Below are positions 5,200 to 30,717 of a stretch of 45,698 nucleotides of DNA, in pieces. Below the pieces are notes generated by a model. It saw only the letters and a program-made list of their open reading frames with translations. It ran no database searches and was not told the DNA's origin. Both the position numbers and the translations under genes were made by a program. Numbering within the stretch: the stretch's first letter is position 1; every line of letters begins with the position of its first letter. The DNA lies in assembly GCA_012513645.1 (NCBI GenBank), contig JAAZBU010000098.1, positions 1 to 45,698 of the forward strand, in the 5' to 3' direction. The stretch is from Clostridiales bacterium (GTDB taxonomy: Bacteria > Bacillota > Clostridia > Christensenellales > Aristaeellaceae).

Positions 5200-5546
5200 G
5201 TTGACGAGCGCAGCCTGTAAGCCGAGTTCTGTCTGGAATGGCCATCTGTCTAGGCGTTCCGTCGCCGGGACGCTCAAGCGATTACGAAAGCGGGACGGGC
5301 CGCCCCATGTGCTTTCAACTATCTTGCACCAGGTGGGGTTTACATGACGGACAAGTCGCCAGGCCGCCGGTGCGCTCTTACCGCACCTTTCCACCCTTAC
5401 CGAAGATTCGGCGGTATCTCTCTGTTGCACTCGCCTTGGAGTCGCCTCCACCAGCCGTTAGCTGGCACCCTGCCCTGCGGTGCTCGGACTTTCCTCATGC
5501 CCGCGGGCATGCGGCCATTCAGCTGCCTCATCAGCTCATATCAACT
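5200..5546 (-). ncRNA. rnpB: RNase P RNA, bacterial type A
   Basis: Catalytic RNA that trims the 5' leader of pre-tRNAs. Read on the minus strand, the hallmarks occur in order: GAGGAAAGUCC (5486-5496), CCGCAGGGCAGGGUGCCAG with CUAACGGCUGG, GUGCAACAGAGAGAUA, GGUAAGAGCGCACCGGCG, and near the 3' end ACAGAA then CGGCUUAC. The ends are placed where the 5' segment (GUUGA...GAGC) can pair with the 3' segment (GCUC.UCAAC) as helix P1, so they are good to about ten bases. The RNA begins just after the stop codon of the zinc-ribbon gene at 5552. No convincing separate promoter was found in that gap, so it may be processed from a longer transcript. Confidence 0.93.
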
Positions 5547-27372: not shown

Positions 27373-29172
27373 TCAGGCCTTGTCCTGCGGGTCAAAGCGG
27401 AGGTGGAGCATGCGCAGCTGCTCCTCCGGCACGGCGGATGGCGTATCCATCATCAGGCAGGAGGCGTTTTGCGCCTTGGGGAAGGCAATTACATCGCGCA
27501 GGCTGTCCGCCCCGGTCAACATCATCATCAGCCGGTCAATGCCAAAGGCAAAGCCGCCGTGGGGCGGGGTGCCGTATTTGAATGCCTCCAGCAGGAAGCC
27601 AAAGCGCTGCCAGGCCTCCTCATGCGTGAAGCCAAGCCAGCTGAACATCCGCTCCTGCAGGTCGCTTGCGTGGATGCGGATGGAGCCCGACCCCATCTCG
27701 ATGCCGTTATATACCAAATCGTATGATTTGGCGCGCACCTGCTCCGGGTGTGTTTCCAGCAGGCCAAAGTCCTCCTCCATGGGCATGGTGAAGGGGTGAT
27801 GCGCCGCCTGGAACCGCTGGCTTTCCTCGTCCCACTCCAGCAGGGGAAACTCGGTAATCCACAGCAGGTTGTCCTTGCTCTGATCAATCAGGCCGAGCTC
27901 GCGCGCAAGCCTGCCGCGCAGCTGCCCCATGGCGGTCAACGCCACGGGCTTTTTGTCCGCGATGAGGAACAGCGCGTCCCCCGGCTGTACGTCCATGTGC
28001 GCAAGGAGCGCCTTTAGCTTTTCCTCGCTGAAGAACTTGGCAAAGGAAGAGCGGACAGTACCGTCCTCCTGCAGGGCCATCCAGGCCAGGCCCTTGACAT
28101 GGTAGGTTTTGACAAACTCACCCAGCGCGTCCATCTCCTTGCGGGACAGGCGGTCGGCGGCCTGTTTGGCCGTGATGGCGCATACCATCTGCCCGCCTTC
28201 CACCGCCTGCTCAAATATGGAAAAACCGCATCCCCGCACCTGCTCATTCACGGTGGAGATGGTCATGTCATAGCGGGTGTCCGGCTTGTCGGAGCCATAT
28301 TTCTCCATGGCGTCCTTCCAGGTCATTCGAGGCAGAGGCAGCGGCAGGTCAATGCCCTTGACCTCCTTGAAGACAGCGGCAAAGGCACCCTCTACGACGG
28401 TTTGAACGTCCTTGGGCTCTACAAAGCTCATCTCAAGGTCCAGCTGGGTAAACTCCGGCTGGCGATCGGCGCGGCTGTCCTCATCGCGGAAGCAGCGGGC
28501 CACCTGAAAATAGCGGTCCATGCCGGCCAGCATCAACAGCTGCTTGTATATCTGGGGGCTTTGGGGCAAGGCGTAGCACTCCCCGGCGTGGATGCGGCTG
28601 GGCACCAGAAAGTCCCGCGCGCCCTCGGGGGTGGACTTGGTGAGGATGGGCGTTTCAAACTCGGCGAAGCCCTGGGAAATCATATGGTTGCGGATGGCCA
28701 TGGTCACCTGAGACCTGGCTAACATGGTCTTTTGCATGCTAGGCTTGCGCAGGTCCAGGTAGCGGTACTTGAGGCGTATGGCCTCATTGTCCTTGGCGCC
28801 GTCCTCTACATAGATGGGCGGCGTCTCGGCGGCGTTGAGGATCTTGGCCTCGCGCACATTCACCTCCACCCGTCCGGTGGCCATATGCTCATTCACCGCA
28901 TCGGCTTCCCGCAGAGCCACCTGGCCGCGGATGGCCAGCACATACTCTGAGCGCAGGGCCTCGCCCATGGCATACACATCGGCAGGCAAGGTATCCGCCT
29001 TGAACACCACCTGCACCATGCCCGAAACGTCCCGCAGCCACACAAAGATAATGCCCCCCATGTTGCGGGCGCGCTGCACCCAGCCCATGAGCGTCAGCTC
29101 GCGGCCTACCATCGCCTCGGTTACTTCGCCGCAGCGGTAATCCCGCCGCCATCCGCCTAAAAACTCAGCCAT
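27373..29172 (-). CDS. aspS: Aspartyl-tRNA synthetase
   Basis: Class II synthetase, bacterial type, 599 residues. N-terminal OB-fold anticodon-binding domain (LTLMGWVQRARNMGGIIFVWLRDVSG, about 28-53), catalytic core with motif 2 (FRDEDSRADRQPEFTQLDLE), the large bacterial GAD insertion and motif 3 (FAFGIDRLMMML). It overlaps hisS by eight bases, the usual Firmicute order. I cannot tell from the sequence whether it is discriminating or also charges tRNA-Asn. Confidence 0.97.
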   Translation of the reverse strand: MAEFLGGWRRDYRCGEVTEAMVGRELTLMGWVQRARNMGGIIFVWLRDVSGMVQVVFKADTLPADVYAMGEALRSEYVLAIRGQVALREADAVNEHMATGRVEVNVREAKILNAAETPPIYVEDGAKDNEAIRLKYRYLDLRKPSMQKTMLARSQVTMAIRNHMISQGFAEFETPILTKSTPEGARDFLVPSRIHAGECYALPQSPQIYKQLLMLAGMDRYFQVARCFRDEDSRADRQPEFTQLDLEMSFVEPKDVQTVVEGAFAAVFKEVKGIDLPLPLPRMTWKDAMEKYGSDKPDTRYDMTISTVNEQVRGCGFSIFEQAVEGGQMVCAITAKQAADRLSRKEMDALGEFVKTYHVKGLAWMALQEDGTVRSSFAKFFSEEKLKALLAHMDVQPGDALFLIADKKPVALTAMGQLRGRLARELGLIDQSKDNLLWITEFPLLEWDEESQRFQAAHHPFTMPMEEDFGLLETHPEQVRAKSYDLVYNGIEMGSGSIRIHASDLQERMFSWLGFTHEEAWQRFGFLLEAFKYGTPPHGGFAFGIDRLMMMLTGADSLRDVIAFPKAQNASCLMMDTPSAVPEEQLRMLHLRFDPQDKA

Positions 29173-30457
29173 TTTGTTCCACTCCTCCGTTTTTCCGCAT
29201 CAACATGCCTGCGATTTGTTCTACAGCGCCCTGCAAGGGGATCTCTTTTTCCTCCCCGCTGCGCATGTCCCGCAGCCGGACATTGCCGCGCTGCATCTCC
29301 TCGCCCCCCACCATCACCAGCATATGCACATTCAGCTTATTTGCGTACTTAAACTGCGCGCGCAGGCTGCGGCTGCTATGGTCGCAATCCACCCGCAGAC
29401 CGGCAGCCCGCAGCGCCAGCGTCAGCTGGAAGGCCGCCGTCAGCGACTCCGGCTCGATATTGGCCACATAGATTTGATATTGCTCGGGCTCGGGCAGGGC
29501 GATGCCGCGGTTATCCAGCTCCATCAGGATGCGCTCCATCCCGATGCCAAAGCCCACCGCGGGCAGATCAGGCCCGCCCAGCATCTCCACCAGGCCGTCA
29601 TAGCGCCCGCCGCCGCACAACGCCAGCCCTTCGCGCACGCCGTGCATGATAATCTCAAACACCGTTTTGGTGTAGTAGTCCAGGCCGCGCACAATGCGCG
29701 GGTCTACCTGGTAGCGCACGCCGGCCGCATCCAGCAATTGCTGCAGGCGGGCGAAGTGATCATCGCACTCATCACAGAGCATGTCCAGCACCACGGGTGC
29801 ATCCGCCACAATGCGTTTGCAGGCCGTTTCCTTGCAATCCAGCACCCGCAGCGGGTTGCGGTCAAAGCGCTGGCGGCAGTTTTCGCACAGGTTGCCCAGG
29901 TTGTCGCCCAGGTATTCCCGCAGCCGCTGGTGATAGCCTGGGCGGCACACCGGGCAGCCGATGGAGTTGACGTGCACCGTCAGGTCATCCAGCCCAAGGC
30001 CGGCCAGCATATTGAGCAGCAGGGAAATCAGCTCCGCATCCGCGGTGGGCTCCTTGGCGCCAAAGCACTCCATGCCAAACTGGTGGTGCTCCCGCAGGCG
30101 GCCGTGCTGAGGGTTTTCGTAGCGGAAGATGGGGTTATTAAGGTAGTACATCTTCTGCGGCTGGGCCTGGGCAAACAGCTTGCCCTCTATCAGGGCGCGC
30201 ACCGCGCCTGCCGTGCCCTCCGGCTTCAGGGTGATGCTGCGCCCGCCCTTGTCCTCAAAGGTATACATCTCCTTTTGCACGATGTCCGTGGTATCGCCCA
30301 CGCCGCGCAAAAACAGCTCCGTATGCTCAAACACAGGCGTACGCACCTCGCGGTAGCCGGCCAGGGCAGCCGCCTGCCGCATGGCAGCCTCCACATGCTG
30401 TGCCCTGTAGCTGTCCTGCGGCAGTACATCCTTGGTTCCCTTGGGTGCCTGTATCAT
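29165..30457 (-). CDS. hisS: Histidyl-tRNA synthetase
   Basis: Class II synthetase, 430 residues from ATG 30457, which follows GGGAGGA. N-terminal APKGTKDVLP, motif 1 near PVFEHTELF, motif 2 (FRYENPQHGRLREHHQFGMECFG), the histidine-specific VRGLDYYTKTVFE and ALCGGGRYDGL motifs, and a C-terminal anticodon-binding domain. An open frame continues upstream through the T-box leader but is not coding. Expression should respond to uncharged tRNA through the leader at 30471-30682. Confidence 0.97.
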   Translation of the reverse strand: MIQAPKGTKDVLPQDSYRAQHVEAAMRQAAALAGYREVRTPVFEHTELFLRGVGDTTDIVQKEMYTFEDKGGRSITLKPEGTAGAVRALIEGKLFAQAQPQKMYYLNNPIFRYENPQHGRLREHHQFGMECFGAKEPTADAELISLLLNMLAGLGLDDLTVHVNSIGCPVCRPGYHQRLREYLGDNLGNLCENCRQRFDRNPLRVLDCKETACKRIVADAPVVLDMLCDECDDHFARLQQLLDAAGVRYQVDPRIVRGLDYYTKTVFEIIMHGVREGLALCGGGRYDGLVEMLGGPDLPAVGFGIGMERILMELDNRGIALPEPEQYQIYVANIEPESLTAAFQLTLALRAAGLRVDCDHSSRSLRAQFKYANKLNVHMLVMVGGEEMQRGNVRLRDMRSGEEKEIPLQGAVEQIAGMLMRKNGGVEQNG

Positions 30458-30470
30458 TGATTCCTCCCAT

Positions 30471-30682
30471 AAAACAACCCATGCATCAAAATGCATGGGA
30501 CGAATTGCTTCGCGGTGCCACCCTGCTTGCACAACACATGTGCCGCTCAATGCCTGTATCGCAGGCTGCGCCGGCTCTCGCCGATGGCTCCGGGGTGTCT
30601 ATCTGATGGTTTGCCGGGGGCTTACAGCCCAGACCCCCTTCTCTTCAGGCAAACGGCACAGCCTCTTCCCTTCAACGCCGAT
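30471..30682 (-). promoter_or_regulatory. T-box leader of hisS-aspS
   Basis: Minus strand. The T-box AGGGTGGCACCGCG (30511-30524) is followed by CGTCCC and then a terminator: nine-pair stem (30491-30499 with 30478-30486), loop TTTG and TTGTTTT. Upstream is a long stem I, with a strong distal helix GTTTGCC/GGCAAAC and a CTGTAAG apical segment (30611-30654). The specifier cannot be fixed without folding; the stretch 30595-30608 contains CAT, GAT and the overlapping GACAC. The terminator ends three bases before the hisS ribosome binding site. Confidence 0.92.
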
Positions 30683-30688
30683 GGGCGT

Positions 30689-30717
30689 ATTATATGGCGT
30701 GTTCGTCCCTTTGTCAA
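30689..30717 (-). promoter_or_regulatory. Consensus promoter of the hisS-aspS T-box transcript
   Basis: Minus strand: TTGACA (30712-30717), a 17-base spacer and TATAAT (30689-30694). Exact consensus. Its -35 overlaps the -35 of the pgi promoter on the other strand. Confidence 0.85.

Follow-up and report, generated by a model that had tools for sequence, protein, structure and literature searches.

Introduction

The sequence GACAC in the specifier loop is a hallmark of the T-boxes that precede hisS-aspS operons (PMC5313534). Gutierrez-Preciado et al. 2009, as cited in PMC5313534, suggested that it interacts mainly with tRNA-Asp, and the same work is cited in PMC4342826 for the view that the element may take two structures, sensing both tRNA-Asp and tRNA-His. 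GACAC in hisS-aspS T-boxes is therefore already known, as are both of its readings. Further names and precedents exist. The S. aureus hisS-aspS leader has been termed a histidine T-box (PMC7927825), and the TBDB database, which mentions one experimentally studied case, takes both the ontology of downstream genes and alternative frames into account. A T-box that senses two tRNAs was shown for the transamidation operon of C. acetobutylicum (Saad et al. 2013, as cited in PMC4052509), and hisS leaders from hdc clusters have been reported with a His specifier (PMC5313534).

Here we analyse a hisS-aspS leader from an uncultured clostridium related to Christensenella, located in a stretch of 45,698 nucleotides that we refer to as the window. 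As far as they are described in PMC5313534 and PMC4342826 (after Gutierrez-Preciado et al. 2009), the hisS-aspS T-boxes of Bacilli and lactobacilli have the same operon, the same GACAC and the same GAC register, which we checked for Listeria (L291), but the window leader differs from them in its truncated stem II and degenerate loop E. With the C. acetobutylicum T-box, going by the account in PMC4052509, it shares two overlapping codons in one specifier loop; there both tRNAs were shown to bind, whereas in the window the second codon is unconserved. An hdc-cluster hisS T-box (L287) also precedes hisS and also has CAC. In that leader, however, CAC lies in the canonical register and is followed by A, the antiterminator bulge is TGGA, and no aspS is annotated adjacent in the stretch fetched. 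From these comparisons and those below we conclude that the window leader is very probably a transcription-attenuating T-box that senses uncharged tRNA-Asp and whose overlapping CAC is not a second specifier.

Results

All window features described in this work lie on the minus strand. The region had been taken for the T-box leader of a hisS-aspS operon by a first-pass annotation of this DNA, and this identification stands. A cmscan match to RF00230 covers 30493-30684, from stem I to the antiterminator, and spans the full length (1-219) with 62.0 bits (E 2.5e-13). Next to it are hisS, for histidyl-tRNA synthetase (29165-30457; TIGR00442, 481 bits), and aspS, for a bacterial-type aspartyl-tRNA synthetase (27373-29172; TIGR00459, 759 bits). 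In relatives aspS also follows directly after hisS, and the named relatives that a search with HisS recovered are uncultured Clostridia and Christensenella-like bacteria. The gathering score of RF00230 is 93 bits, so a default gathering-threshold scan misses the window T-box, which at 62 bits falls under the curated cut-off. Relatives with the same operon and a full stem I score 65-138, and a whole-genome T-box search recovered the window leader again, among ten T-box matches in the genome.

The leader has the flanking signals of transcriptional control. A probable promoter is formed by the -35 hexamer TTGACA (30712-30717), 17 bases ahead of the -10 hexamer TATAAT (30689-30694); many relatives keep the latter immediately before the leader. 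The Rfam alignment and the sequence place the antiterminator core, TGGCACCGCG, of the UGGN-ACC type, at 30511-30520. It is followed by an intrinsic terminator at 30471-30499, the hairpin CCCATGCAT-TTTG-ATGCATGGG and then TTGTTTT; this succession is that of a T-box leader. Stem II, within 30540-30600, is a short hairpin without an S-turn, and stem I has a degenerate loop E motif; much of the family shares both traits. We do not take a stem II with S-turn as defining, since it is not universal and glycine T-boxes lack it (PMC7583486). The minimum-energy fold of the whole leader (z -1.4) does not reproduce the T-box fold and was set aside.

It might be asked whether the leader is a degenerate one in which the riboswitch is no longer active, given a score of 62 bits where the cut-off is 93, a stem II reduced to a short hairpin and the non-canonical AGAGG/GAUA instead of AGUA/GAA. 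Yet nothing is broken in the promoter, the basal helix, the T-box core or the terminator, and the genus as well as much of the family retains this same reduced form, with compensatory changes. We consider decay extremely unlikely.

Within the specifier loop, the first-pass annotation had pointed to GACAC as holding both GAC (Asp) and CAC (His), and had placed the specifier there. The sequence at 30595-30599 agrees on the first point and the Rfam model on the second, as it locates the GAC of GACAC, and not CAC, in the specifier columns (30597-30599). Next comes a conserved purine, A30596, which is also the middle base of 'CAC'. The leader accordingly has a GAC followed by a purine A, and aspS is among its downstream genes. 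Relative to the canonical register the CAC is displaced by two bases, and it is followed by a basal-helix C rather than by a conserved purine. This basal stem I helix joins GGG (30668-30670, 5' strand) to CCC (30592-30594, 3' strand), and among 50 hisS leaders its three pairs are present in 49, 50 and 48, with compensatory changes between GC, AT, CG and TA. The last base of CAC, the variable base at +5 (30595), stands opposite A30667 without a Watson-Crick pair; in the multiple alignment a standard pair is found at this position in just 18 of the 50 leaders. Pairing of GACAC in a helix had been named as a result that would speak against the proposal of two overlapping codons, and we do not see it: GACAC is unpaired because the basal helix starts after it and base 30595 lies outside that helix. 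Two sense codons, GAC and CAC, therefore overlap in an unpaired specifier loop 5' of the basal helix. As a motif alone GACAC is unremarkable (49 occurrences in the window vs 62.7 +/- 6.7 in shuffles), therefore only its location in the specifier loop carries meaning. Two further codons had been noted just upstream, CAT (30608-30606) and GAT (30603-30601). Both are present, but they are not conserved, with GGCATCGT, AGCAGACG and CACCGCGT in relatives.

The presence of both codons in unpaired form, with both synthetase genes downstream, raises the possibility of a two-codon T-box, in which tRNA-Asp would bind GAC, tRNA-His would bind CAC and a shortage of either would induce both synthetases. 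Two-tRNA sensing has been proposed for hisS-aspS leaders, according to PMC4342826, and the transamidation operon of C. acetobutylicum provides a precedent (Saad et al. 2013, as cited in PMC4052509). Against a reading of the leader as responsive to Asp only, it can also be held that the unpaired GACAC brings CAC within anticodon reach, and that GACAC is the commonest form, found in 34/53 GAC leaders.

Conservation separates the two codons. With specifiers located by a 3' GAGC motif anchor and Rfam alignments, the 61 hisS leaders with a locatable codon divide into 53 with GAC, 6 with AAC and 2 with GGC, a conservation of GAC that is partly by construction because the specifier finder behind this table favours GAC, AAC and GGC. 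The Rfam model, which has no codon preference, likewise puts GAC in the specifier columns of L012, L020, L186, L205, L212, L216 and the Listeria leader, and its columns agree with the table in the examined leaders showing a specifier, except in L056, where one base is inserted. Following GAC, the 53 GAC leaders have AC (34), AG (5), AT (5), AA (4), GC (2) or GG, GA and GT (1 each). In the hisS-aspS leaders L208 (2666-2907) and L233, GGC occupies the GAC site (GGCAC) and AAC lies just upstream; both genomes have asnS.

Plotted on a HisS tree of 53 leaders, the first codon position is G in 50, the second is A in 51 and the third is C in all. Parsimony requires 2, 1 and 0 changes at these positions, 5 at base +4 and 11 at base +5. 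As to whether relatives conserve GACAC, its first three bases are kept, as GAC or AAC, in 51/53 leaders, but CAC is intact in 35/53 and lost in 18/53, with about 11 changes. The losses include the same-genus relative L012, which reads GACAA, as well as L020, L021, L024, L030, L042, L049, L186, L216, L218 and others. Further afield, a Paenibacillus leader reads GACTT, with GAC and without CAC, and the Listeria leader reads GACAC.

For comparison we used other types of T-box, 83 of 127 of which aligned confidently under a score blind to the codon. In 62 controls with an NNC specifier for other amino acids, the +2 frame holds CAC in 15 and CAT in 9, and the loops carrying CAC include TACAC, TTCAC, ATCAC and ACCAC. 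CAC is commoner in the Asp leaders (34/53) than across the NNC controls as a whole (p=2e-5 when the A is not conditioned on), but given A at +4 a C follows at +5 in 34/48 Asp leaders vs 15/24 controls (p=0.59), these p values being guides only, as related genomes are not independent. The CAC excess in Asp leaders is therefore due to the A at +4. A review of T-boxes describes the purine after the specifier as a conserved stacking base and C as generally preferred at codon position 3 (PMC7583486). A C-ending specifier, a conserved stacking A and a C together give rise to CAC, and since CAC arises from the way T-boxes are built, its presence is no evidence of dual sensing.

The acceptor ends of the tRNAs add a further, smaller argument. 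Using RF00005 and ARAGORN, we found that the tRNA-His of the window genome has a CCCA end and a G before position 1 (G-1). No tRNA-Asp gene was found in this genome, which is incomplete, but in three relatives the tRNA-Asp has a GCCA end, complementary to UGGC. The UGGC bulge of the antiterminator (30520-30517) can pair with the GCCA of tRNA-Asp and fits G73, not the C73 of tRNA-His; among GAC leaders the bulge is TGGC in 50 and TGGT in 3. By itself this argument is weak, because the TGGA bulge of the His T-box L287 does not pair with the discriminator either.

These results weigh on the proposal of two working codons. In a two-codon T-box both codons should be under selection, but CAC is lost repeatedly, C at +5 is no commoner than in other T-boxes with A at +4, the base after CAC is a basal-helix C and the bulge suits G73. 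In favour of CAC, L208 and L233 retain it although GAC has become GGC. On balance the comparison makes two-tRNA sensing by the window leader unlikely. The first-pass annotation had suggested a response to both uncharged tRNA-His and tRNA-Asp; with only GAC or AAC conserved, and a CAC that comes and goes, sits off register and lacks a following purine, this suggestion is not supported. A weaker form of the idea is that in this subclass the specifier loop would contain an additional unpaired base, so that the leader could alternate between GAC, read by tRNA-Asp, and CAC, read by tRNA-His, and would also respond weakly to His shortage in lineages that kept CAC. This too we think improbable.

The Asn specifiers are informative about the register. 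In order-level relatives AAC (Asn) occupies the same Rfam specifier columns as GAC, and it is the specifier of hisS-aspS leaders L026, L037, L039, L046, L047, L056 and L198. An asnS gene over the cut-off is absent from 6/7 AAC genomes vs 4/26 GAC genomes (p=0.001), and gatB is present in 5/6 vs 1/15, in a comparison that includes incomplete genomes and groups clustered by phylogeny; the one AAC genome that has asnS is G073. With AAC found mainly in genomes that lack asnS, the codon goes with the AspRS gene. The leader appears to read Asn where AspRS presumably charges tRNA-Asn too, and the specifier seems to track the tRNA substrates of AspRS.

This also bears on whether the window leader could be a histidine T-box, with CAC operative and GAC incidental. 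Such a label is what a database-type assignment from the first gene would give, hisS being first, and it would match the name used for S. aureus (PMC7927825) and the use of gene ontology and alternative frames in TBDB. But the Rfam register and the conservation point to an Asp/Asn register, and so does the switch from G to A in the first codon base where asnS is lost, as would be expected were that register the working one. We therefore hold a histidine T-box to be very unlikely.

Discussion

Our preferred reading, a T-box for tRNA-Asp, draws on what the sequence shows, namely the T-box identity of the leader, its codon register, the conservation of that codon, the basal helix and the compatibility of the acceptor end. 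By analogy with the known T-box mechanism, tRNA binding, antitermination and the exclusion of tRNA-His would follow. The anticodon GUC of tRNA-Asp would pair with GAC (30597-30599), with A30596 stacking beneath the codon-anticodon helix. The free GCCA end of an uncharged tRNA-Asp would then pair with UGGC (30520-30517) and stabilise the antiterminator, and RNA polymerase could pass the terminator (30471-30499) and transcribe hisS-aspS; when tRNA-Asp is charged, the terminator would form instead. The CAC is made up of the third base of the specifier, the conserved A next to it and the variable base at +5, and would not be read as a second specifier.

Within the limits of sequence comparison, these results bear on the reading of the His codon in hisS-aspS leaders, which has been under discussion since 2009. 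They also advise caution, in that the specificity of a T-box should not be named from the first downstream gene. More useful is a side result: the change in the first specifier base that turns an Asp codon into an Asn codon is seen mostly in genomes lacking AsnRS, so the leader seems to go with the tRNAs that AspRS handles.

Some other RNA elements were noticed in the course of this work. Three hisS leaders from Bacillota (L021, L178 and L187) have an ultra-short stem I, with a promoter directly before a short hairpin that carries GAC in its apical loop. They retain an intact T-box core and terminator and look transcriptional. The same form is seen in L040 and in pattern matches in G239, G286, G305, G359 and G369. 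Ultra-short stem I is known from translational ileS T-boxes of Actinobacteria. In the window there is also a glycine riboswitch aptamer (RF00504, 36639-36722, 62.9 bits), which probably precedes genes for glycine cleavage, and a class A RNase P RNA (5201-5530, 265.5 bits).
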